Part shown: positions 11,877 to 58,598 of the stretch, in pieces
Layout: every line of letters starts with the position of its first letter
Position numbering within the stretch: the first letter of the stretch is position 1
Source: Chrysaora quinquecirrha
Lineage: Eukaryota; Cnidaria; Scyphozoa; Semaeostomeae; Pelagiidae
NCBI GenBank assembly: GCA_014526335.1
Contig: JACTAT010000108.1
Span: forward strand, 46,164 to 110,163
Reading direction: 5' to 3'
Length of the DNA stretch: 64,000 nucleotides
Notes under the pieces: model-generated
What the model was told of the DNA's origin: nothing
Seen by the model: the letters and a program-made list of their open reading frames with translations, nothing else
Database searches by the model: none
Made by a program: the position numbers and the translations under genes

Positions 11877-14286
11877 ATGACACTGCAAGTTAAGTTGATG
11901 CTGTCATCTGGACAACTTGTTGCATCTAAAAGGTGCACTCCACTAGGCTACCTAAGGTGGTGTACGTACTTGCCCGGGTCATACTTTCTGTGTGGTGACT
12001 TGAACCTTTTCAGCTTTTATCTTCATTCTGAATTTGCAGCAAAACCTAATGATAATCCTGTTCTTATTTGTAATTTAAAGGTTCTGCTGAAAGAAAATAT
12101 CAACAAGCAGTTTAAAATGGGAACACTTGGAAAAGTGGATGAGAATCTACAAAAACTTGATTCCAGCAGACTGGGTATCAAACCATGTGATCTGACATCA
12201 GATTTTTCAGTTTTTAATTGTGTAATACTTGATTTGTCCTGGAACAAAATTGATCATGTTCCTGAAGAATTTCTTTCTGTTTTGGAAAACATTAGAGAGC
12301 TAAATTTGAATGGAAATTCGATAAAAAAATTACCAGTAAACTTTGCAAAAAATCTAAAAGATCTTCAGATTTTGCACCTAAGTCATAACAACATAGGAGA
12401 ACTGCCTAATGATTTCTTTCAGGAATTATGGCAGTTGAAATCCCTATTCTTGAGCGCAAACTTGTTGACAAAATTCCCAACAAATGTACAGACACAATTA
12501 AAAGCACTTGACATAAGCTGCAACAAGCTAGATGTATGGAATATCAATTTTGGAGATGGTCTAAGAGAGCTTGAGTATCTAGACTTGAGCAGAAATGGAA
12601 TAGACAATCTGCCCTATCAGTTTGCTGAATGGTTTCCAAAATTGCAGTGGTTGAATTTAAGTAACAATATTATTGAATCATTGCCTGGAAATTTGGGAAC
12701 AGGTTTAAGGAATTTGGAATATTTGGATTTGAGGGGAAACAAAATTGGTGAACTACCACATGACTTTGCCAAATGGTCATTTGAACTCCAGACACTAAAT
12801 CTAAGTGGGAATAGAATAATTTCATTGCCAGGTCATTTGTTTGCAAATCTAACAAAACTGCAACATGTAGATTTAAGCTGCAATATGATAGCTGAGCTTC
12901 CAAGTGATGCTTGTGAAGGCCTGTCACATCTTCAGTTTTTGAACATGAGTAATAATTCATTAACATCACTACCTGAACATTTTGGACATGGTTTTAAAAA
13001 ATTAGAATATCTGAATTTAAGTCAAAATGAAATAAAAGAGCTACCAGATGGCACTGCTCATTGGCTGCAAGAGCTTCAGTGGTTGAATCTTAGTGGTAAT
13101 AAATTAAAATCATTGCCAGAACATTTTGGAGCCATGTTAGAAAAACTAAGATGTCTTGATGCCAGTGGAAACAGAATAGGTGAACTACCTGTGTGTTTTT
13201 CAAATTGGTTTCCAGAGCTTCAGCTATTGAATTTAAGTGGCAACAAGTTGAAATTCTTACCTGCAAATTTCTGTGCAAATTCTACCAATCTGGAAGACTT
13301 AGATTTAAGCAAAAATAGATTAGGTCAGCTACCAAGTCATTTTTTAAGTAACTTAACAGAGCTCCAGTCTTTGAATCTTAGTGTAAATGAGTTAAAGTGC
13401 TTGCCCGAACATTTTTGGGTAAATCTACCAAAGCTTGAATACCTTGACATGAGCAAAAATGGATTAGATATCCTACCAATCTCTTCATCAGACATATCAA
13501 CCAAGCTGAAATATTTAAACCTTTCCTGCAACCAGTTTAAGTGGCTACCTGAATGTTTTGGCAAACAGCTTACCAAACTGGAGCACTTTGATTTGAGGCA
13601 AAATAAACTAGCTGAACTGCCAAACCACTTTTCAAACTGGTTCCCAGAGCTTAAATGGCTGCACCTTGGTGACAATGAATTATGTTACTTGCCAAAGAAA
13701 TTTGGAATGGGATATGGGAAACTAGAATATCTCAATTTAAGCAGAAATAGTATTAAGAATCTTCCAATTGACAACCCAACATGGATGCTGAATTTGGAGA
13801 CTTTGGTTTTAAGTGGGAATGAGTTAGAAACTTTGCCTGATACTTATGTCACAGATTTGACAAAGCTGAAGAACCTCGATGTAAGCAAGAACAAAATCAG
13901 TGATTTGCCAGACTATTTTGCAGAGTGGCTACCACAGCTGCAGGTATTAGATATCAGCTGCAACAAATTAAAATCACTACCAGAAAGTTTTGGAACAGAT
14001 CTGATGAAGTTGGAATATTTAGACCTAAGCTTTAATGACATAAAATATCTGCCTGCCCATTTAGGAATGCATCTATCTAGACTTCAAACCTTGCATTTGG
14101 ATAACAATGAAATAACCCATTTGCCAAAAAGCATTGCTGAACTGAAATTGGATGCAAAAATAAGCATACTCAATAATCCTTTAGTAGAGCCACCATATGA
14201 AGTCTGTTTGCAAGGATTGCCTGCAATCAAATCATATTACAACGAAGAAAAGACTGATTCAGCTTCAAAACCAAAGAATAGAAATG
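11877..14286 (+). CDS. PIDD1-like gene, exon 1: N-terminus and ~27 leucine-rich repeats
   Basis: This is the first coding exon of a PIDD1-like LRR-ZU5 gene. PIDD1 in vertebrates is a cytosolic scaffold that cleaves itself and activates caspase-2 or NF-kB signalling. From ATG 11877 the frame gives about 803 residues before a donor at 14287 (AATG/GTATAT, phase 1). About 27 LRRs of 23-24 residues run from about residue 115 to 755, of the type LEYLDLSRNGIDNLP. A C-terminal cap, NNPLVEPPYEVCLQGLPAIK, follows, as in PIDD- and SHOC2-like LRR proteins. Neighbouring repeats alternate between two types (FAEWFPKLQWLNLS and FGTGLRNLEYLDLR), so the array looks built from about 47-residue pairs. The true start may be ATG 12117, after a possible acceptor at 12038-12039, because residues 1-80 match nothing recognised. 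Human PIDD1 has far fewer LRRs. Read past the donor, the frame continues to 14429, which is probably intron. Confidence 0.85.
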
Positions 14287-14897
14287 GTATATTTCTTAAA
14301 ATTTATTTCTGTGGAACAATTTCTTGCGATTTTTTCACTCCTTCATTAGGTTGTGCTTGGAGGCAAGTCAACTCATGCCTTTACCAGTCTGACGCCCTTC
14401 AGTTCTTGTATGTTGCTGCTTATTTTTAAATAGCTTATCAAATAATTCAAATGAACATTCGTTTGATCCACTGTGATCTTTTGTCCAGAAATCTCAAGAT
14501 GTGAACACTCCTCTTCTTTTGTCTTGCTCTTTCTTCTTCGTTGCTCTTGTGTTCTTTCTAGCTTACATTCGTCACTCTACAGTATATCCTCATTTCAAAA
14601 CTTTCCAGCCTTTACTTTTCACGACTTTTCAGCAGACTTGATAGAACTGATTATACGATACAATTTGGTAGTTTGAAACATGCTTGAAGAAAGGTTTTAG
14701 TGACAACAAGCCACCACCTGTTCCATTGTTAAGATACAAAACATGTCTTGAACCTTTTAACTAGCACAATTAGGACCCCCTTTTCTTCTGTACAGGCATA
14801 CACTTCATGATTATTTGCCATGCATCTAGTTTGCTCATAAAGAGGAGAAACCTTTTTGCCCAACGGTTTTAGGCATTTGTTCTATGTTGCATTTTAG

Positions 14898-14931
14898 ATC
14901 TTGTTTACGTGGATGCAAAATTTTACACCAA
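14898..14931 (+). CDS. PIDD1-like gene, 34-nt microexon
   Basis: An ATTTTAG acceptor (14891-14897) and a perfect GTAAGT donor (14932) bracket 34 bases. Exon 1 ends in phase 1 and the first ZU5 exon needs phase 2; these 34 bases convert one into the other exactly. They read DLVYVDAKFYTN and run on into VTKKVLDKNGENF. Supported only by splice signals and phase. Confidence 0.55.
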
Positions 14932-15498
14932 GTAAGTAAATAATATTGACTTCCTCTATTTCTTAGGTCTGTTTCTGTTTCCTATTTTGCTTATCTTTGC
15001 TTGCTCATCTCCGTCAATAGCTCTGTTTTGGACACTAGCTTCATGTACTTTAAAATGTTGTACAAGGTCCGCGGAATAGACGTGGCCGTACAAGAAGGTT
15101 CGATGATGGCGAATGCAATATAGGTATCATGTTTAAAGTTAACTGTATTCTGTAGAGCCTACACAACATCTTTTTCATATAGCATTGTGTCATTTAACGA
15201 GTGTGTATTTTAGAGGTGCAGGATACATTTTGTAATGCTAATGCACACAGACGAGTTTTGATGCAGGACTTGTATTACCAATCTATTAGCTAACCATATT
15301 GGGTATATGAATCGTTTTTAACCTGTCTATTCTTAAACTAAATTAAGTAAGTGGTTGAGTTCACGAATAGGTCAGGTCTTAAGTTGGCTTCGAAGGTATT
15401 TAGCTTAGGCTTTCGTTTTTAGATAGTTTCCTTTTTAGATTTTCATCCATATCAGTATCCGATTTTCTTCTAAGTCAGTGTTCACGATTTTACCACAG

Positions 15499-15938
15499 TG
15501 TGACAAAAAAGGTGTTGGATAAAAATGGAGAAAATTTCGTATTTGAAAACCTTGGTGTCTTGCTGAATCTACCTAAAGATGCTTTGGATTCGTCTCTCGA
15601 AATTGAGTTATCTCGAAAGTCATTTGCCGATATTCCTTTAGACCTGTCTTTTGGTGAATGTCTGCTGAGTGACGTCGTTGTACTTGGACCAGAAGACATT
15701 GCCTTGTTGAAGCCGTGCACATTGAATATTCCATACAATTTGCACGAAAAACCTGCTATGACAGAAGTTGTTGCGAAACATTATGTTTCATCTGAAGAAA
15801 AGTGGATCACTCTGCCAACAAGCGTAAAAACAACGTCACACGATGGTAAAAATTGCTCTACATTTAAATCTTTTTTCACTTTCGTCTTACTGGAAATGTT
15901 TGCGAAATGCCGAAACATTGAGGCTAATGTTCATTTTG
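15499..15938 (+). CDS. PIDD1-like gene, first ZU5 domain exon
   Basis: The exon follows the acceptor TTTTACCACAG and is read with GTG at 15500 in frame. It encodes a ZU5 fold: VTKKVLDKNGENFVFENLGV, LLNLPKDALDSSLEIEL, GECLLSDVVVLGPEDIALLK and a closing strand STFKSFFTFVLLEM. ZU5 domains occur in PIDD1, UNC5 and ankyrins, and in PIDD1 they carry the autoproteolytic HFS motif at the end. Here the equivalent position reads FFT, so this domain is probably not cleaved. A donor at 15939 (TTG/GTTTAA) is weak but gives phase 1, matching the next exon. Without splicing the frame runs to a stop at 15956-15958. Confidence 0.8.
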
Positions 15939-16247
15939 GTTTAAATCATCTCTCCTGAGCAGTAGATAAAATTTGTGATGGACAAAGTTTTCGTAAATCC
16001 CTGGATCTTTTTAGCTTTAGAAAACTTTACCAAATTGCTTTAAAAAGTAGTTAGCCCCACGTTACAAACCCTACAAAGTTTCAATTTTCCTCTCACAAAC
16101 GAGAAGTTCATTTGGAGATGGATGTAATTTCTGTTGCCAATCCAGCATTGTAGATAAACAATGTCACCGCGCCCATGTTCGGTATTCATTTGCGTTTCGT
16201 TAAAGACAATTTTGTTTCTGTAACAAAAGTGCTGATCATACTTGTAG

Positions 16248-16453
16248 ATGAAGAAAGTGTGCGCAAACTGGCTGAAGTGGAAATAACTAAGGCTGGAGTA
16301 TATACAATCTGCCTTCAGCTCCAACCAGTTTTGTTTCATGTTGACGTTGGTAGTAAAGCTGTTGAGTCGTATCCATTTGGAGAAGATACTGGAATCAAAC
16401 TTCGTTTTCAACCCGGAACCTTTGCAAAAAATCCTGCGAAGTGTATTACGAAG
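16248..16453 (+). CDS. PIDD1-like gene, start of second ZU5 domain
   Basis: The exon lies between CTTGTAG (ending 16247, phase 1) and the donor AAG/GTGAGA (16454, phase 0). It encodes EESVRKLAEVEITKAGVYTI followed by PFGEDTGIKLRFQPGTFAKN and PAKCITK. The GIKLRFQPGTF segment corresponds to the ZU5 core strand (usually .LRFP.GAL). The next exon completes the domain in phase 0. Confidence 0.78.
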
Positions 16454-16699
16454 GTGAGATCTGACAATGACAGATGCATCTATTGAATTCAAATCTAAAT
16501 AGATTGGAGCACTTTGCTGTAGCCATTTATGTTGCGAGCAACGAAAAGACGACGATTGTTTTTATATGGTTATTTCTCCAGCTGCTAATCTTTTTCCTTC
16601 ATCTCGTGTTTTGTTGACATGTTTCTTCACGATAATGTGCGGAATCAAAAAAGACTCAGGTCAACATTGCAAAATTCTAAATATAAAAGTAAAACTGAA

Positions 16700-17132
16700 A
16701 ATTGGCAAAAAGTTTAACATTTTACATATTATGAGGCTTGAAGTATAACATTTTATACATTCTGAGGCTAGAATTTGGCTAAAAGTATAACATTTTATAT
16801 ATTCTGAGGGTGAAACTTGACTGAAAGTATAACATTTTATAAATTCTGAGGCTAAAATTTGGCTAAAATTATAACATTTTATATATTCTGAGGGTGAAAC
16901 TTGACTGAAAGTATAAAATTTTATACATTCTGAGGCTAAAAGTATAACATTTTATATATTCTGAGGCTAAAATTCGGCTGAAAGTGTGACATTTTATATA
17001 TTCTGTGGCTAAAACTTGGCTACAAGTATGACATTTATATATTCTGAGGCTTAAACTTGGCTAAAAGGGTGACATTTTGTATATTCTGAGGCTAAAACTT
17101 TGCTGAAAGTATAAAGTTTTATATATTCAGAG
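16700..17132. repeat. 42-bp minisatellite, about 11 units, intronic
   Basis: Units of the form GTATAACATTTTATATATTC, TGAGGCTAAAACTTGGCTGA and AA repeat head to tail about 11 times, with occasional 31-bp deletion units (for example near 16912-16942). The array sits in the intron between the two halves of the second ZU5 domain (16454-17404). Confidence 0.9.
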
Positions 17133-17404
17133 TTTTTCACACAATTTTTCTCCTGTCCACTGCTAATTCAAAACAAGTGTGACATTCATGTTTAATAATA
17201 ATGTTCTGTTAGTAAAGAGCGGAATTTTAATAAATTTTGTTATGTAAGGATATATTTAGGCTCTAAATGTATGAAAATTGTTAAAAATCGAGGTTCAGCA
17301 AAATTTTAAAGGTATTCTGATAAAAACGTTGCGTAGAACCAGATTAGGATTATCATCCATGCTACACCGATCCTTCACTACTTTTTGCTGAATTATTTTA
17401 TCAG

Positions 17405-17664
17405 GTGAACATGTTCACAGACGAGGCTACGATTGCTCTGAGAAAAATGGGAATAATAACAAGTCCCGTTCTACATATGGATATGTCTGAGGTGCCTAAA
17501 AGAGCTATTACGATTGAGCTCCCGTTTGAGCAAAGAGAATCTGCTGAAGGAAAGTTTATGATACTTCAAGGAAATGAAAATGGCGATTTTGGTGATGTCA
17601 CTAATGATTCAAAATATGAATTGAACGAAAACCGAGTTATCTTTCAAGTTAACCATTTCAGCCT
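17405..17664 (+). CDS. PIDD1-like gene, second ZU5 domain with HFS motif
   Basis: The exon lies between TTTTATCAG (ending 17404, phase 0) and the donor CCT/GTGAGT (17665, phase 2). It reads VNMFTDEATIALRKMGIITS, then SEVPKRAITIELPFE and ends RVIFQVNHFSL. The final HFS matches the conserved autoproteolysis triad of PIDD1 ZU5 domains, where the chain is cut between F and S. This is the strongest evidence that the gene is PIDD-like rather than a generic LRR protein. A cut here would release a fragment beginning with the UPA region. Confidence 0.82.
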
Positions 17665-17836
17665 GTGAGTTCTGTTGTTTTTTTACATCTTACGTATTTC
17701 TTTCGGTCGAAATTCTAGCAGAGTTATAGTAAGAAGCGAAAACGTCGAGGCCGGAATTTCTGATCATAACTACAGACAACTGCCTTGGACAGACAATGTC
17801 TTCTTGCATTTGGAAAATCAAGGAAAAATGTTTTAG

Positions 17837-17918
17837 CATGTGTTTTACTGCTGCCAGCCCCCGGTTAGTTCTTCGGGTTCGGAAATTTGTAGGATTACCA
17901 ATATACTTCAAAGAAGAG
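17837..17918 (+). CDS. PIDD1-like gene, UPA N-terminal exon (donor uncertain)
   Basis: After acceptor ATGTTTTAG (17828-17836), phase 2 continues HFSL into MCFTAASPRLVLRVRKFVGL and PIYFKEE. The RVRKFVGL segment parallels the start of the UPA domain in PIDD1 (RVNFIGL), which also follows HFS directly. The end is uncertain: GAG/GTTATT at 17919 gives phase 0, fitting the exon at 18701, while the frame stays open to EFSC before a stop at 17942, with another GT at 17936. Confidence 0.55.
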
Positions 17919-18611
17919 GTTATTTACGAATTCTCGTGCTAGTTTTATGCCAGGCAGTTACGTAGGTCGCATTTCTCAGAGATAAGGAGATAGGATCATA
18001 CAGCATATTCCTCATGATATATCGTGAGCCCAATTTTTGGCGAAGAAAGCAAAACACACTGCGGGTCTAAACAACTTCACCCTATATACTTTTTTCATAC
18101 TAGCATTTTCCAGGGGGGGGGGTGTTTTCTTCCCTCTCCTCTGTAAATTGTTTCTCCGTGTAAAATGCCTCTAAGATGAACCAGAGCTTTGAAAATTTTC
18201 ATAATGGTGGAATATTGCCAAAAAGCAACAAACAGATTTTGGTGGTTCCCTCTTCTATTCTGACGTAACAATGATGCCATCAAGTACAAAGTCAGGTATA
18301 TTGCAAAATTGGACCATTTTCGCACCAATAATTGCCTATTTTGTCTCAGAAAAAAGGTTATAAAGGTCAATCCCCTCGTATGTAGCCGATTATGCTTACA
18401 TAATACAATACGTTTGTGTGTTTTTCTTGATATATGCTTGAAAATTGAAAACGGAAGGTAAATTTTGCACATGTTTCACGAGATCTATTCCTGCAAGGTA
18501 TTTTCTAAACCCTCAACTTTGGTTTAAATATGCAAGTGAAGGAACATTTCAAAGACTCTGATGTATGGAGAATTGATATATTGACGTTTTATAGTTTTTC
18601 TGAATTTAAGC

Positions 18612-18680
18612 CAAGAATGAGGTCATGATGACGTCATGATGACGTGACGTTATGATGACCATTCTATGCGGACGTCATCA
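18612..18680. promoter_or_regulatory. cluster of CRE/ATF-like TGACGTCA motifs (intronic)
   Basis: The stretch contains GATGACGTCATGATGACGTG followed by ACGTTATGATGACC and GGACGTCATCA, giving several full or half cAMP-response-element motifs within about 65 bases. It lies just before the exon at 18701. It may be a short tandem of ATGATGACGTC rather than an enhancer. Confidence 0.3.
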
Positions 18681-18700
18681 AATCTAATTATTGATTGCAG

Positions 18701-18865
18701 ATCCAGAATGGGGATGTCAAACTTGATATGTTGCATGAATATCATGGATTTCCATTCATGTTATCCTTATTTTCGGAACGAGAAGCCATCAGTTTGCCGA
18801 CTAAGTCCAATAAATGTTGTGTCGTGATTCTCTACCTAGATACTGCGGAGACGCTTTCGAAAAAT
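18701..18865 (+). CDS. PIDD1-like gene, UPA-like exon
   Basis: After acceptor TTGATTGCAG the frame reads IQNGDVKLDMLHEYHGFPFM, then LSLFSEREAISLPTK and NKCCVVILYLDTAETLSKN. It could end at a donor at 18866 (AAT/GTAGGA, phase 0). It lies downstream of the HFS-bearing exon on the same strand. It fits the acidic stretch followed by a hydrophobic strand seen in the second half of UPA domains, though the resemblance is loose. A diverged copy of the same exon lies on the minus strand at 23539-23698, which supports it being a real, phase-0 exon. Confidence 0.6.
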
Positions 18866-18964
18866 GTAGGATCATACATACTTAATAGAACGTCAAGCTA
18901 AAAAGTTTATGAGAAATAAACGTCAACCTTCATACGAATTGGGTTAAACATGATTCTCACACAG

Positions 18965-19160
18965 GATTGGATTGTCATGATAAGCCACAGTGCAGAAAAT
19001 CAATGCAAGAATCGTCTTTGTTTCAAGTTTTGGAATCGGTCCGCATCAAAACCAAAAAGCCGGTTTTTAATAAAGGGCAAGAGATCATTTTCTCACTTGG
19101 ACTCTTCAATTTATACTATTGGTCTTCCTGCTGTATACCGCAAGCTGGTTGGTTTTGACG
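18965..19160 (+). CDS. possible further PIDD1-like exon
   Basis: Acceptor CTCACACAG (ending 18964) precedes a stretch that is open in two frames. One reads CHDKPQCRKSMQESSLFQVL followed by ESVRIKTKKPVFNKGQEIIF; the other reads DWIVMISHSAENQCKNRLCF. No domain is recognised in either. The donor and frame could not be settled, so this is only a candidate link between the UPA-like exon and the RHIM-like exons. Confidence 0.3.
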
Positions 19161-20568
19161 CACAATGCCGATTCATCTGACGGATGCGTTCAAACTTGTA
19201 TCTGGAAAAAACTCCAGGTCTTTCAGTTGTTTCGATATTTTCTTACATTTATTCTCTAACATCGATACTCTATACTCTGAAGATAATTAGAATTCTTCAA
19301 GCTTCTACCCGATCGCCATTTCAGCTATGTACTGCAATTCTTCTTTGAGAGATACAACTGTCAAAATAAGGTTGCCTGCTAATCAACAGCCTGGTAATAA
19401 GAGTAGAAATGAGAATATATTTTGATAACTTGAATACCTACAAGAGTTATCGTTCATTCAATAAATCATCTTCTAATATTTGTCTATAGATTGCTGGCTG
19501 TACGAAGCAAACTTTCAGAATTCCTTGAAGTTTTGAAAATATACGTGTCCGGAGCACGTGCCACTCATTCGGGCCCTTAGGACGGTGTCTGGTTTGTGAT
19601 TCTCGGGGGTTGGGTTGTGGCTCTGTGTCCTCGTGCATCATTGGTTTGCAGGGTCTTCCCATATGAATAGCTTAAGCGACCGAACAATCAGTGACCTAAT
19701 GTGTTGTTTTGTGTTTTTTGTCCGTTTTTGTTGTTGTTAAATGTATTTTTTTTCTACTTCTGAGATTGCTAAAGAAATTGTTAAGTGCGGTCCATAGCCA
19801 GAACCAGATGACGTCATGTCTATTTCTGCTATGGGCGGCACAGAATATTGTATTATATTCTTCTGTTTTCAAATTTCATTGATAAGAAACTTTCAAAGTG
19901 TCCAAAATGATAGAGTGGTGCCATCAGCTAATAAAAAAACGGCCCTGTTCCTTCCTTCTAAGCAAATTAAATTAAAGGGTCAACAAAATGGTTCACACAC
20001 ATATACGGTAGTGCACTTAACTTCTTTGTGTTATTGACCACTAGTTTGAGAGGTATATGCCTATTGAGGGTTTACGTTAGACCGGATGAGATGCGTAGTT
20101 AAAAAGTTTTAACTCAACCACCGTTATTTATATTTTATCATCAACATTGATTTCTTCATCTTTGTTAACATTTCTAGAATGGCTTATTCTCTCCCATTCT
20201 GCAGACCTATTTCTTATTCCTTGTATCCCAATCATTTAGAAACTGGCTTGGTCAACCGTATGCCCTTATTATGGGGAATCGACAAGGTTAAAGCTGGTAC
20301 GTGCCAAGTCCTCTCAGATACCATAAATGAACTATTGTAATGGACAATAAATTGACTCTATTGTGCAGTGCAGAGAATCATTGCCGTGATTAACTTGCTT
20401 TCAAATTCAAAGTGATTGAATAGGCCATTTTTAAAATGCACTGTCTTACCCTTGTCGATTCCAGATAAGCATTTTCTGGTGTAATGTTGCGCTTATTCGG
20501 ATGGTTGAGGCCTGCCTTCACGAATAAATCTGTTTTTAACACAACATATTTTCTTCTTTTTTCATCAG

Positions 20569-20709
20569 GTTCTAATCAAGCAGTTATTTACAACCTTAAT
20601 GTACATAGACATGAACATAAGCATGAAAATGTTTTCAATACAAATGTCCTTGATAGATCTACTGCAATCATTGGTGAAACGAATACAGTTAAGATGGAAG
20701 ACACAAAAG
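20569..20709 (+). CDS. exon with RHIM-like motif 1 (likely same gene)
   Basis: Bounded by TTTTTCATCAG and the donor AAAG/GTATCA, this 141-nt exon is phase 1 at both ends. It reads NQAVIYNLNVHRHEHKHENV followed by FNTNVLDRSTAIIGETNTVK and MED. The AIIGETNTV segment fits the G-x-x-N core of RHIM-type amyloid motifs ([IV]-Q-[IVL]-G-x-x-N-x-[ML]) but lacks the Gln. RHIMs mediate amyloid assembly of RIPK1, RIPK3, TRIF and ZBP1 in cell-death signalling. Membership in the PIDD1-like gene is inferred from strand, order and the absence of an intervening terminal exon. Confidence 0.5.
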
Positions 20710-21092
20710 GTATCACTGATTCAAAACAAGGAACATTTTAGCCATTCTCCGACTGACTATTCTCCGACGGTACATGCTACTGTGTATAATGAGATAACTC
20801 TATTTATATGAGAAGTAAGTGAAAATTGAACGGCTGAGGGAAAAATGCCCCTATCATATATTTCATGTTTATAAAAGATGAAACGCACATGCAAGAAATA
20901 TATGACAGGGCACGTTTGTCTTATGCAAGTAAGTATTGAAAATCATGGACAGCAGATTCTCCCTGTCGTCAGAGATCAGAAGATGGCCAAAATATTTGTA
21001 ATCGGTAAAATAACATTCTGCATACACATGCTTGTAAACAAATTTTAAAACAGAGTAGTTTTGGTTTTTACAGTTTTCTATTTTATTCCTAG

Positions 21093-21220
21093 TTTTGCAA
21101 ATTGCTTATCATGCCGGCCAAGGAAGACCACTACAAATAGGAAACAACGAGTTATTGGAAATAGAGCACAAAAGTGCAACAGCCATCTCTCAAGAAGACA
21201 TCAAAGTTTCTGATCTTTAA
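21093..21220 (+). CDS. terminal exon with RHIM-like motif 2 and stop
   Basis: Acceptor TTATTCCTAG (ending 21092) opens a phase-1 exon that joins the previous one exactly. It reads VLQIAYHAGQGRPLQIGNNE, then LLEIEHKSATAISQEDIKVS, DL and TAA at 21218-21220. RPLQIGNNELLEI closely resembles a RHIM (Q-I-G core with hydrophobic flanks), though the usual Asn three places after Gly is Glu. It would be the C-terminus of the PIDD1-like protein, where vertebrate PIDD1 has a death domain. No death-domain exon was found between 18.9 and 21.2 kb. Confidence 0.55.
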
Positions 21221-24262: not shown

Positions 24263-24459
24263 TTTTCGAGGTATTTCACGCCAAATGATTGAGGCAGAAC
24301 ACAGGGACCCAACATGCTCAACCTCACACGTACATCGTCTACCAACTCCACCCGGCCTGTCACGTACAGTCCGTCAAAGCTGAAATTCAAAGATCTGCTT
24401 TATTTGATGCTCACTGGTCAAAGATTGGAAGCTACTATTAATGTCTTTTTTCGACCCAG

Positions 24460-24693
24460 TTGTCTCGCCCACGGGAAATACTCGGGATTGATTTGAGCAG
24501 TAAACTGCCAACGACACCTAGAAGATTTCAATACATGTTTACATGCACAGACTACTTCACAAAATGGATAGAGGCATTTCCAATCAAGACAAAAGAGGCA
24601 AGTGAGGTTGCTCAGTGTTTGCGACGCATGTTTTACCGACACGGTGCCCCAGAAACGGTTATTATTGGCAATGGAAAAGAATTTGTGAACGAG
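24460..24693 (+). pseudogene. integrase-type gene, catalytic core exon
   Basis: Between TTCGACCCAG (ending 24459) and the donor GAG/GTGAGG (24694, phase 0) the exon reads REILGIDLSSKLPTTPRRFQ, YMFTCTDYFTKWIEAFPIKT and EASEVAQCLRRMFYRHGAPE. It then reads TVIIGNGKEFVNE. This is the RNase-H-fold core of a gypsy/Ginger-type integrase. The first catalytic Asp (CTDYFTKW) is kept. The second site, normally (S/T)D(Q/N)G.EF, reads GNGKEF: the Asp is lost and one residue is missing, so strand transfer is unlikely. Confidence 0.82.
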
Positions 24694-24782
24694 GTGAGGC
24701 CTCTTTCTTATTTGCAATTTAAAGTTTCTTCAACTTCTGTAACAGAAACCTGAGTGATATCTGCTGTATCTAAAACTTCTAG

Positions 24783-27975: not shown

Positions 27976-28680
27976 ATAACCAAGCCGGATAAATAACGAA
28001 GCATTATATGTTGAAACTAGTTGTGTTTTTATGTAATGAAACCGTTTCGACGAAAGGCCGCGAAGAATGAAATTGTTCAAAATTTCAAGATATCATATTC
28101 GCTAAGATCAAATAAAGCTTCCAAACTAGAAATGCCTAGAAACGCTTGCTAGACGTACCTGGAAAAATAGCCAGGGATTGATAATTTGGTAATTTCTCAC
28201 TTCAAGTATAAATGGTTAATGGAGCCTTTTGGGGAAGAATGATGGGAAATATATTGTACTTCTGTTCCTTTTCGTATTAACCCTCTTGTTCTTTAAAAAG
28301 GAGTTTCTTCCTTTTCATCCGAGCCTCGACAGTTCCTTAAAGTTCCTTAATTTTTTGGGAATTTTCAGCCTCTAGTTCCTTATAAAGGTGTTCCTTATTA
28401 AAAAACTTGTAAAAACTCTTATTTTGGTTCTTTTCTTGCTTTTCAATGTAATTGGCAAAACAAGTTTGCTAAGAATCTTGAACATACTAAGATATTCTTT
28501 ATATGGAAAGTCATCTTTTGCAAAATGTTTAGCCAAATTTACCATTTATTGACCTGTCAATAAAAAACCAGAAATTGCTTTACATTATGTTACTGGTAAC
28601 TATTTTTTATTACCTTGAAAAGAATCAGTCAATTCTGATAAGATTTACTGGTAAAAATAAGAATCTATATGGGGATTTGG

Positions 28681-49033: not shown

Positions 49034-49489
49034 ATGGAGCATTTGGAGGGGTCTTTGACTGCCATAAACATAGGGTGCCCTGTTGGAAAGAAGGTTGTTG
49101 ACAAATTAAAGAGTAAAACTTGGAAGAAAAGGATGAGATTTCTGAAACTGACGTTAAAGAAATTGTTCAACAGCTGACTGAATTTCCTAAACTCAAGGAA
49201 GAATTCCTAAACAAGATGCCTAATTGGAAGAGAAATAGAGAAGAGACTATTCCTGAGCTTTATAGAATAGCCAACGAATGCAACAAATTGCACAAAGACT
49301 GTAACATTTCAAATGTTACTGGGTCAAGTGTCGGAGCAGTAGGAGGACTCATGGAGTTACTTGGTATTGCACTAGCACCAGTTACTTTTGGAGCATCTTT
49401 GGGTCTAACAATTGCCGGAGTTGCTACAGGATTTGCAGGAGGTGCCACCAATATCATTACATCGATTGTGGAATCATCAAAAATGAAAG
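49034..49489 (+). CDS. apolipoprotein-L-like gene, exon 1 (possible frameshift)
   Basis: ApoL proteins are amphipathic, membrane-interacting proteins of innate defence and intracellular membrane traffic. From about 49117 the frame reads EEKDEISETDVKEIVQQLTE and continues to the hydrophobic core VTGSSVGAVGGLMELLGIAL, APVTFGASLGLTIAGVATGF, AGGATNIITSIVESS. This glycine-rich hairpin is the family signature. The exon ends at AAAG/GTTTGT (49490, phase 1). ATG 49034 starts MEHLEGSLTAINIGCPVGKK but is in another frame, which ends at a stop near 49173, so reaching the ApoL frame needs a single-base change near 49117-49130. Otherwise translation starts elsewhere (next in-frame Met 49216). A CAGC/GTAAGT donor at 48993 may close a 5' exon. 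Confidence 0.75.
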
Positions 49490-50074
49490 GTTTGTAGCTA
49501 ACCTACTTCTATTGTTACTATAAAAATACAATTTGCCCTTACCCGCAACAGGCATTCATCCAATGAATTATACAAATAAGTCACTCAATAAAAGGATATT
49601 TAGGACATTAAGGTCATTATTTATCATGTTGCATGTTTAGTTTTTAGGAAGTTTCGTGGTAAAGATAAGCCTTAACTGAATCACAGTCTTATGTATAATA
49701 GGTAGTCATTAGAAAAGCTAGAAAGCTAGTAACCCTTCCAGCTTGATCTTCGTGACCACAACGGTTTAAATTGCATTTATTTGGTTTTCCTTATGTTCCC
49801 TTGAAGTTTAAGGGTTTAAAGTCTGGATCTGGATCTGGGTCTGTGGGTACAAATCCCGGTGTCTTTAGAATTATGAAATAAAACCGACAGTCAACTCAGC
49901 CGTCCATTCTTCCGAGGCCGGTTAATGAATATACCCAGGGCATCCGTTCTAGAAAACCAGACTTAACCCGCGCGTGGACATCATCTACACAACTGCAAAG
50001 ATCCCTGATAAATGAAGATTGCCATTTTGCCACGGGGGTTTCTTCCATAGTAAAGGTACCTGGGGATGTGCCGC

Positions 50075-50395
50075 GCTAGAGGGTATATTTTTTCGGGGCC
50101 AAGGGTATAGTTGTTGGCAATTTTGGTCTAGCAAAGGGTATCATATTTTGGTAATGGAGCGGCCATGCTTTTTTCTTTAGTAGCCTTGGAAAGTAGAAAT
50201 TTCATCGTAAACATTTTAAAAAGGAAATGATAAAAGGAATAAGTTGAACTTTGAATTTTCCGACTTAAGACCAACAATTTCGAGCATATTTGTCTAGCCA
50301 AGGGTATAATTTTGGTAGAAATTGGTCTAACCAAGGGTACCATTTTCTCGTAGAAATTAGTCTAGCCAACGGTACCATTTTGAATATGCCGGTGG
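50075..50395. repeat. intronic repeat, GTCTAGCCAAGGGTACCATTTT
   Basis: Four imperfect units (near 50128, 50292, 50328 and 50363) of the form GTCTAGCCAAGGGTAYCATT followed by TTGGTAGAAATT lie in the ApoL-like intron. The rest of the intron (49490-50756) shows no gene. Confidence 0.55.
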
Positions 50396-50756
50396 CAGAC
50401 CCCTACCAAAAATTTAGCCAAGAATCGCCACCCTTGCATTTTGCTTGCTTTCGACGCGAATTAAACCCTAGTTAAATCCTAACTTAACCAAACCTTAAAC
50501 CTGGTTCCAAGGCCTTAGCCGTAGAGAGATCAGAGATACTGAGAATGCTATTCATCTCCTTCCCATATTCTTCACTCTCTCCTGCTCCAAGTCTACGGCC
50601 CTGACACCCAGGGGAAGCCAAACCTCTGATGCCAGATTATCAAGAATCAATGTATTTGTTTTGATCAGTCTCAGTTCTTGCATGCCTTGCGTATTGAGTC
50701 TTCTCGAATTTGATTTTTTATTTTATTCATTGAGAAATGATGCATTTCATTTTTAG

Positions 50757-51277
50757 ATAAATGCAAAGCTGCCCAGAACTGTCTCGATAAGGACAGACGG
50801 GAAACAGAAGCTATGAATGCAATTGTGGAGAAATTGATGGGCTTCATCAAAAATTTAGATGCTCTGCAAAAGAAGTTGGATAAAATTGGAAATTTAGAGA
50901 CAGCATCAATTGTGCTTAATGCAACTCTTCTTGCTTCCAGCTCCGTGACATCTGCCTATGGAATTGCCAAGAGTGCACAAGCCGTAAAACTCATCCGTTC
51001 TTTCACTGCCGCTGAGATATCTGTACTTAAAGAATGCCCGAAGATGATGAAAAATCTTAAAGCATTGAAAGGTACAGCATTGGTTGCTGGCAAACTTACT
51101 ACCTGTTTGGCAGTTGCAAGCTTGGGAATATCAATTTACGAGATAGTAACCACTTCAATGGATATTCACAATGGCTCTGAAACAAAAGCAGCAGCTAAGT
51201 TAAGGGAAAACGCAAAAACTTTGCAAGAACAAAAAGATACATTGTGTGCAATAGAGCGTACACTGAGAGGACAGTAA
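50757..51277 (+). CDS. apolipoprotein-L-like gene, exon 2
   Basis: Acceptor CATTTTTAG (ending 50756) joins exon 1 in phase 1. It encodes DKCKAAQNCLDKDRRETEAM, an amphipathic helix MGFIKNLDALQKKLDKIG, a second hydrophobic region (TASIVLNATLLASSSVTSAY, and GTALVAGKLTTCLAVASLGI) and the C-terminal IHNGSETKAAAKLRENAKTL, ending in RTLRGQ and TAA at 51275-51277. The final segment parallels the conserved C-terminal LEDGARTETAEELR.LAK.LE of vertebrate ApoL proteins. Combined length is about 297 residues, near the family norm. Confidence 0.85.
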
Positions 51278-56475: not shown

Positions 56476-57269
56476 GTAAGTTCATATGTTTCTAATATTG
56501 ATTCTAGGTTTAGTGCCACCCTCTCGCAAATAAATTGCACTTTATAAGCAACCTCTTCGGATAACCATTTTGTAACATTATTCCCATTTTTTAGGGTATT
56601 TAATCGAATAACTTGAAAAAATACAAGGGGCCCTCGTGCAAATTTGGCTGTTGATTTTGGAATGTTAATGTGACTTTTTTAATGGAAGAAACCTTTGTGG
56701 GAAGAAACTTTCGCGTTTTCTGCATTTTAGGTCAAAATTCACGAAAGTTTTTTTGCGTGAAACTTTCCAAAATTCAAAATTATCTAAAGTTAATTCAGCG
56801 AAAGTTTCTTTAACAATATATTTACAATAGTTTATCCCGGAAAAAAATAATTTCCAAAACCTTTGCTCAGTTTATGGTTTTATGAAAGGATTTTGAGTCT
56901 AATATTCATGGAGTTTTATACATAAATTATCCTGTTGGAAATCCCATTAAAAAGTCAAACTCATTTGGCTTTATTCCCAAAAACACAACTGATTGTTCTT
57001 GAGGTGCCAAAGATTCTTCCTGCCAAACTTCCCCTTTTCTTGGTTTGCCATATTTCCAAACATTTTGCGTTGCTCTGAGTTGCAAAAGTATCTTCATGCA
57101 AAAATTTTTTTCCTTAAAGGAAATTAATTGTGTGAAAGGGAACATGGGGGTTCCTATTATTGTAACCCTATTCTTATGAAAAACACATCCACAAGAAGAT
57201 TTATTTCTGTAATTTCATGTTTGGCATATACAACTCACAATAAAGACTGACCTTTTTTTCTTCATTCAG

Positions 57270-57482
57270 GAAAGAATTGCACATCAGACTGCTAACATAC
57301 CACACCCAATGACTATTGCCACATCAATGTACAAGGCTATATGCCAGGATAAAGAAAGTCAGTGCTGTGTAATTGCAGGAGAAACATGCTCTGGAAAAAC
57401 TGAAATTGGAAAAATTGTATTGAATGGTTTGCTGAAGAAAATGACTTGTGAGGATACAGAACTGCCTCATAAAATACTAATG
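57270..57482 (+). CDS. myosin exon 3 with P-loop
   Basis: CTTCATTCAG acceptor and ATG/GTAATG donor, 71 codons, phase 0. It reads PHPMTIATSMYKAICQDKES then QCCVIAGETCSGKTEIGKIV. The nucleotide-binding P-loop, normally GES(G/A).GKTE, is GETCSGKTE; the Lys and Thr that contact ATP and Mg are kept. It ends ELPHKILM, leading into the next exon. Confidence 0.9.
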
Positions 57483-58598
57483 GTAATGTTCATTTCTACA
57501 TTTGTATTTTTAAAATTTTGTGCAAATTATGTTTTCGGATACCTTATAAGAATAAAAACATCTTTTGCCTTCCTTTTTTGTCTGATATTCCTCAGATACT
57601 AAATGTCAGAAACAGACTGAAACAATTGAAACGACAAAATTTATACCCAAACATACCCAAAAAGTGAGAAGCTGAATTCAGATTGTGTTTTGATACAAAT
57701 AAAATTGAGGATACAGAGAGAAGACCATTATACAGTATATATAAGATTCTAATATAGAAAAGAACTCCAAAGACTTTTCAGCTCTTTTTCATTATCTTGA
57801 ACTTTACAACAACTCAGAAGCTTTTAATTAGTTAAACAATCTATATTCTGAATTCTGAATTTGTGCTAATTGTACCTTTAAATGCTGTGCTCCCCTGACA
57901 TGCTCTGTTATCTTTGTTTGTCTGGGTCTCCAAAAACATGCAGCAAGCTCCAAAATATGAAACGCTCATAAACCTAGAGGGGCAGAGCATTTCATCAAGA
58001 AAGGTCCATGCTTTGTCTTGATGGTAAAGGACCTAAAACAAAAGCAAGAAACCTTTGCCTTTGGAAATGTTTTTCTACTGGTGTATTTAAATTTTATTAC
58101 TTATTTGTAGAAGCCCCTTTCTCTCTCTGATGACAATAAATCAGTGATGCAATAAAACTTTTCCAAATATGCAGCATATATATAGCATAGGGTCTTGAAA
58201 ATATTTTCTTTAGTTCCAACTTAAAAAGAAGCATTGTAATTTATTTGTACAGGAAAACTGAGTTTTAACACAGCCCACTCATAGCCTTATTTGTCATTTC
58301 ATGTTGAAGTAAAAAATACCCAAGACAAAATTTACATGCCAAAATGTGCTATGCATGATACGTGCCAGAATGTCAGCATGACTGTACATGTAATAGATTT
58401 ACGCATGGTTATTCTTATGATGAGAAAGCAGCCGTTTGTTTTGCATGTTGCACATAAGTTTTGCAAGAAAATGATTTCTTGGTGAGCTAGATGTCGCACT
58501 GTTAAACCTTTCACATCCCCAAACACATTTCTGTGTTTTGATTTGAATTGTAATCCCCTTCTATGATGTAATATAAATGTATTAATAAATATTTCAAG

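Follow-up and report, generated by a model that had tools for sequence, protein, structure and literature searches.

The stretch of Chrysaora quinquecirrha DNA analyzed here, 64,000 nucleotides long and referred to as the window (C89:46164-110163; the other contigs concerned are labeled C36, C146, C257 and C468), carries on its plus strand a gene that resembles PIDD1. The explanation to which we give slightly better than even chances is that this gene is a damaged copy from an expanded PIDD1-like gene family encoding proteins with leucine-rich repeats (LRRs) and a FIIND, in which the death domain has been replaced by a new tail encoded by two exons that probably acts as the output after self-cleavage. 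In the sister loci the order and phases of the exons are maintained, the tail is conserved and under constraint, the HF/S motif is present and a C-terminal death domain is absent. The tail, of about 90-100 residues, is new, and no paper on an LRR-ZU5-UPA protein with such an end was found in the open-licence literature. An earlier note on this DNA had instead proposed RHIM-like motifs at the end of the protein and signaling by amyloid templating.

The family was delineated by searching the 328 Mb assembly with the ZU5 exon. The search gave 13 matches: two come from an inverted copy of the gene on the contig of the window, one from the window itself and ten from paralogous loci, P1-P10, at 40-61% identity. 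About 20 kb around each of P1-P10 was compared. The inverted copy lies 480 kb away, at about 547-560 kb of C89, and differs from the window gene by ca. 4%, introns included. It contains an open chain of 515 residues running from the two ZU5 domains through the UPA-position domain to the tail, encoded by seven exons with GT-AG splice sites and a single terminal stop; P4 and P10 are likewise open to one terminal stop. The features of the window locus, for which substitution rates are expressed as the ratio of nonsynonymous to synonymous changes per site (dN/dS), are:

12117..14286, plus strand: E1, LRR exon with about 26 repeats, in an open frame from 11847; Pfam LRR_8
15499..15845, plus strand: E2, first ZU5 domain (Pfam ZU5); splice sites common to the paralogues
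16248..16453, plus strand: E3, end of the first ZU5 domain (no HFS) and start of the second; counterparts in 9 of 10 paralogous loci (missing in P7)
17405..17664, plus strand: E4, second ZU5 domain, terminating in VNHFS (the HF/S motif); counterparts found in all paralogous loci except P5 and P7 (8 of 10); PIDD1 alignment up to HFS
19490..19560, plus strand: remnant of U1, the first part of the UPA-position exon; matches U1 of the paralogues and of the inverted copy
19561..19882, no strand assigned: 322 bases without similarity to the inverted copy; the copy carries a different segment of 665 bases there, including the rest of U1
20569..20709, plus strand: tail exon A (HEHKHEN ... TAIIGE), with phase 1 at both ends; 11 places in the genome; dN/dS 0.08-0.35
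21093..21220, plus strand: tail exon B (VLQIA ... LQIGNNELLEIE) with the stop codon; the same exon in the inverted copy, and 9 further places

The LRR region is a single exon of 723 codons counted from 12117, the likely start codon as judged from where the alignment with the paralogues begins. Pfam LRR_8 matched it with an E-value of 1.6e-100. It holds 25 LRR matches spaced by 21-24 residues, with one gap of 48 residues, which gives about 26 repeats, against about 27 in the earlier note. The two ZU5 domains were recovered by different means. The first, at 15.5-15.8 kb, was found by Pfam (E-value 9.1e-11). The second (16,248-16,453 joined to 17,405-17,664) gave no Pfam match, but a profile built from five family members aligned with the second ZU5 domain of human PIDD1 up to HFS (probability 81.6, E-value 1.1e-5), the human sequence having been confirmed for its death-domain part alone. 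The PIDD1-like order proposed in the earlier note, an LRR array followed by two ZU5 domains, therefore holds, and in the sister loci it is continued by a UPA-position domain.

HFS follows the second ZU5 domain in 8 of the 10 loci that have E4 (P1, P2, P3, P4, P6, P10, the window and the inverted copy), and P8 and P9 have RNFN instead. No HF/S motif is present after the first ZU5 domain, where the window and the copy have KAGVYTI or KAGIYTI. In the protein database none of 2732 candidates matched the ZU5 region with the full-length query, and one ZU5 relative was found (155 residues, 59%). When the PDB was searched with the ZU5 domains of the window the only match was ZO-1; the P4 sequence gave ZO-1 plus a chance match to a kinesin adaptor, and the family profile gave ZO-1, an ankyrin ZU5 domain and a chance match to a capsid protein. 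The donor site of E2 has an equally good alternative six bases further on in P3 and P4. In the intron preceding E4 there is a 42-base tandem repeat of 9.6 copies (16741-17132), which produced many cross-matches with the inverted copy.

Comparison of the paralogues revealed two exons behind HFS, U1 (P1, P2, P3, P4, P6, P8, P9, P10 and the inverted copy) and U2 (P3, P4, P6, P8, P10 and the inverted copy). In the underlying alignment (A3) the U2 end of P6 was set by hand and the row of the inverted copy holds one window residue. The position and length of the U1-U2 domain, about 155 residues, suggest that it may be a UPA domain; profile searches did not match it to one, and Pfam marks no UPA in PIDD1 itself either. 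The earlier note had placed UPA-like exons at 18.7-19.1 kb. These have no counterpart in place in the ten paralogous loci, and the real UPA-position exon begins at 19,490. Of the two candidates, 18,702-18,868 and 18,950-19,110, the first would have an entry phase of 0 against an exit phase of 2 for E4. The second has its sole similarities in P3 and P8, upstream of the ZU5 exons and with stops, and therefore looks like a repeat.

The two last exons, for which phase-1 compatibility had been claimed, are real. Exon A occurs at 11 places in the genome, 10 of them with an E-value below 0.003, and at all ten of these confident places exon B lies downstream (eight found by one query, the window and the copy by another). 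The two exon B matches on C146 reached an E-value of only 0.16, and a lone exon B at the start of contig C36 gave 0.05. Both ends of exon A are in phase 1 in the window, the copy, P3, P4, P6 and P10. In eight loci (P3, P4, P6, P10, two more on C257, the window and the copy) the protein ends with exon B and not with a death domain; the C146 place that was read had no stop within 131 bases. The low dN/dS of exon A was obtained in 7 of 9 pairs. The remaining pairs are that of window and copy, with 3 nonsynonymous but no synonymous changes, and one that was saturated. In a codon-usage test, a weak one because of its small training set, tail exon B scored higher than 98.7% of noncoding stretches; the corresponding values were 98.1% for E4, 85.3% for tail exon A and 65.8% for the 18.7-kb exon. 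Order, phase and constraint in the sister loci thus mark the last exons as coding and as linked with ZU5 genes. That they belong to the same kind of gene is supported by the inverted copy and the paralogues, where they stand behind the ZU5 exons, but not by the window copy. Searches for relatives of the tail elsewhere gave none among 939 protein-database candidates for the exon A alignment, and in the PDB only two chance matches, one of them on a His tag.

The window copy itself is probably a pseudogene, because its UPA-position exon is broken, the next exon is missing and the frame stops at 19,580. U1 breaks off at 19,561 into the 322 foreign bases, which have no match in the compared family loci besides the window itself. 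U2 is missing: where the inverted copy has 519 bases, the window has 25 (19,933-19,957). If E4 is spliced to the U1 remnant, the stop at 19,580 is reached 30 residues after HFS, and if it is spliced to exon A translation stops after two residues. At best, the window copy would probably make a protein terminating at the first of these stops. We consider it very improbable that the copy is functional and that its splicing bypasses the lost UPA-position exons. In the window, exons E1-E4, A and B are intact, and E1 has dN 0.028 against dS 0.081 relative to the copy, as expected under that alternative; against it stand the stops at both joints, the score of −4.9 for the sole in-phase GT ahead of the stop at 19,580, and the about neutral pattern in E2-E4 (4 synonymous and 13 nonsynonymous changes between window and copy).

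The proposal that exons A and B are RHIMs, by which the sensor would signal through amyloid templating, appears quite improbable. What speaks for it is the tetrad LQIG in exon B of the window and the copy, which according to an excerpt of PMC12119088 is a natural RIPK3 tetrad of amphibians and fish and still activates NF-κB, together with the conservation of TAI[IV]G in all nine exon A sequences compared. On the other hand, Pfam RHIM gave no match in exons A and B of the window, the copy, P4, P10 and C146 (the first residues of the query pieces for the copy and the C146 tail were wrong), while the human RIPK3 control scored 6.5e-11. Genome-wide no place passed the cut-off; one reached an E-value of 8.3 and lies outside the PIDD1-like family. 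Across all six reading frames of the window there are 10 instances of [VIL]Q[VIL]G, and 30 first-order Markov simulations predict 9.8, so that the tetrad is no more frequent than by chance. It is not kept in the family either: among the 10 loci read at that site only the window and the copy have LQIG, and the other eight have LEID (2), LEMK (2), LEIR (3) or LELK (1). The RHIM core is given as G-[IV]-Q-[IV]-G in the part of PMC7885112 consulted, and no exon B of the 10 loci agrees with it; the core in the window and the copy is PLQIG, with P instead of G before the tetrad. Like RIPK1, RIPK3, ZBP1 and TRIF, exon B of the window and the copy has one LQIG tetrad followed by N residues, but in addition to the differences above it has no N at +3 after the tetrad. 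The RHIM assignment is therefore unsupported, and the tail is real without being a recognizable RHIM. It may still be a divergent signaling amyloid.

The claim that the protein lacks a C-terminal death domain was borne out. None of the 20 Death matches found genome-wide lies on the contig of the window, and translation of 17.6-22.1 kb in three frames gave no Pfam match. MyD88-like death-domain exons do occur beside family loci; they account for 5 of the 20 Death matches, resemble one another and are located at C146:4251430 (L002), C146:4482720 (L003), C257:10420005 (L004), C257:10216582 (L006) and C468:261202 (L007). Three of these death-domain exons precede the LRR exons of P4, P5 and P7, whose strand they share, by ca. 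10-12 kb, and no TIR match was found near them. For the two on C146, the distance to exon A, which lies upstream, is ca. 4-5.5 kb; behind each of them comes a TIR exon, as in the layout of MyD88. Such an arrangement would fit an alternative in which the death fold is still used through the other end of the protein or through a partner, the MyD88-type exons belonging either to the 5' part of the same genes or to adaptor genes duplicated together with them. Both the mutual similarity of the five exons and the uneven occurrence of TIR are in line with it. However, the contig of the window has no Death match and the compared stretches contain no conserved exon linking a death-domain exon to an LRR exon, so that we regard this alternative as unlikely.

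Several observations weigh against a PIDD1-like gene with a tail that acts as its output. E1 leaves in phase 1 in the window and the inverted copy, as do the best-scoring donors in P5, P7, P8 and P9 (the exit phase is unclear in P3, P4 and P10), and E2 enters in phase 2 according to the splice-site comparison with the paralogues. A short intervening exon is therefore expected between them, and it was sought and not found. The U1-U2 domain had no profile match to any known UPA. Constraint on exon B is uneven: seven of the nine pairs gave dN/dS values of 0.11-1.29, calculated on about 20 synonymous sites. Finally, half of the 12 ZU5 loci (P1, P2, P5, P7, P8 and P9) yielded no exon A or B, either in the compared stretch or nearby in the genome search, and these six may end differently. 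Conversely, the ZU5 match list, which is itself a lower bound, does not include four A/B places, two each on C257 and C146.

The latter two observations, fast evolution of exon B in close pairs and no A/B tail found at half of the ZU5 loci, also suit a possibility that we rate clearly below the favored explanation but above the other alternatives, namely that the tail serves only as an extension for structure or targeting, such as a beta-rich cap or a piece for multimerization, with the output elsewhere in the protein. The composition of exon A, rich in H, E and K with a beta-like alternation, would agree with such a role. The tail occupies the exact place of the death domain, however, and ends the protein in the eight loci read, and exon A is strongly constrained, which argues for a function as output.

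In the favored explanation, the LRR array would sense a signal and the protein would cut itself at HF/S in the way PIDD1 does. By analogy with PIDD1 and NLRP1, cleavage would leave an LRR-ZU5 piece and an output piece containing UPA. The released piece may then assemble through its UPA-position domain, with the tail, of a fold that cannot yet be named, as its output. In a bolder version, which we think rather improbable, this LRR-FIIND lineage replaced the death domain by a short self-assembling and possibly amyloid-like tail, spread that tail to no fewer than ten loci, retained MyD88-type death-domain genes next to several of these as partners, and would thereby have built a PIDDosome on another assembly principle. 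Should the favored explanation be correct, the output of a self-cut ZU5-UPA fragment would be exchangeable for something outside the death fold, and the tail provides a defined piece of about 90-100 residues for testing.

The remainder of the window contains several other elements. An ApoL-like gene of at least two exons lies at 49117-51274 on the plus strand (Pfam ApoL E-values of 2.7e-31 and 2.5e-6); between its exons is a repeat of about 390 bases that occurs in at least dozens of places among the matches listed. An exon at 57213-57599 (plus strand) is similar to the myosin head around the P-loop, with an E-value of 5.1e-8, just under the curated cut-off. A retroelement open reading frame (ORF) resembling an integrase (Pfam rve) is present at 24442-24750 on the plus strand, and another element occurs in three copies at 28661, 32492 and 39530 (plus strand) with identical 97-residue ORFs. 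Segments 11.3-24.4 kb and 49.0-51.3 kb of the window, comprising the PIDD1-like gene, the retroelement region downstream of it and the ApoL DNA, recur inverted on the minus strand at C89:514-560 kb. The ApoL DNA of the downstream flank recurs at 99-100% identity, compared with about 96% for the gene. The compared stretch around the inverted copy contains no match to the DNA upstream of 11.3 kb. The inverted recurrence may reflect either a large duplication in opposite orientation or an end-to-end join of the other haplotype.

In PIDD1, NLRP1 and CARD8, the output domain that receives the self-cut ZU5-UPA fragment has the death fold. According to an excerpt of PMC3210808, PIDD1 cuts itself after each ZU5 domain at HF/S, and the FIIND of NLRP1 and CARD8 is a self-cleaving ZU5-UPA unit followed by a CARD. 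The family described here shares with PIDD1 (LRR-ZU5-ZU5-UPA-death domain) the LRRs followed by two ZU5 domains, HF/S after the second ZU5 and, in the sister loci, the UPA-position domain. It differs in having about 26 LRRs instead of the 7 listed for human PIDD1 in the part of PMC9573974 consulted, in the lack of HFS after the first ZU5 and in the tail that replaces the death domain; the window copy has in addition lost its UPA-position exons. With NLRP1 and CARD8 it has in common a self-cleavage motif between ZU5 and the UPA-position domain and a C-terminal output piece, but no NACHT was found, the LRRs lie on the N-terminal side and the output piece is not a death fold. A parallel to an exchanged C-terminal output on an LRR-ZU5 sensor is the amphioxus LRR-ZU5-kinase protein LOC118406448, as described in the same excerpt of PMC9573974, where the output is a kinase, in contrast to the short tail without a known domain in the present family.

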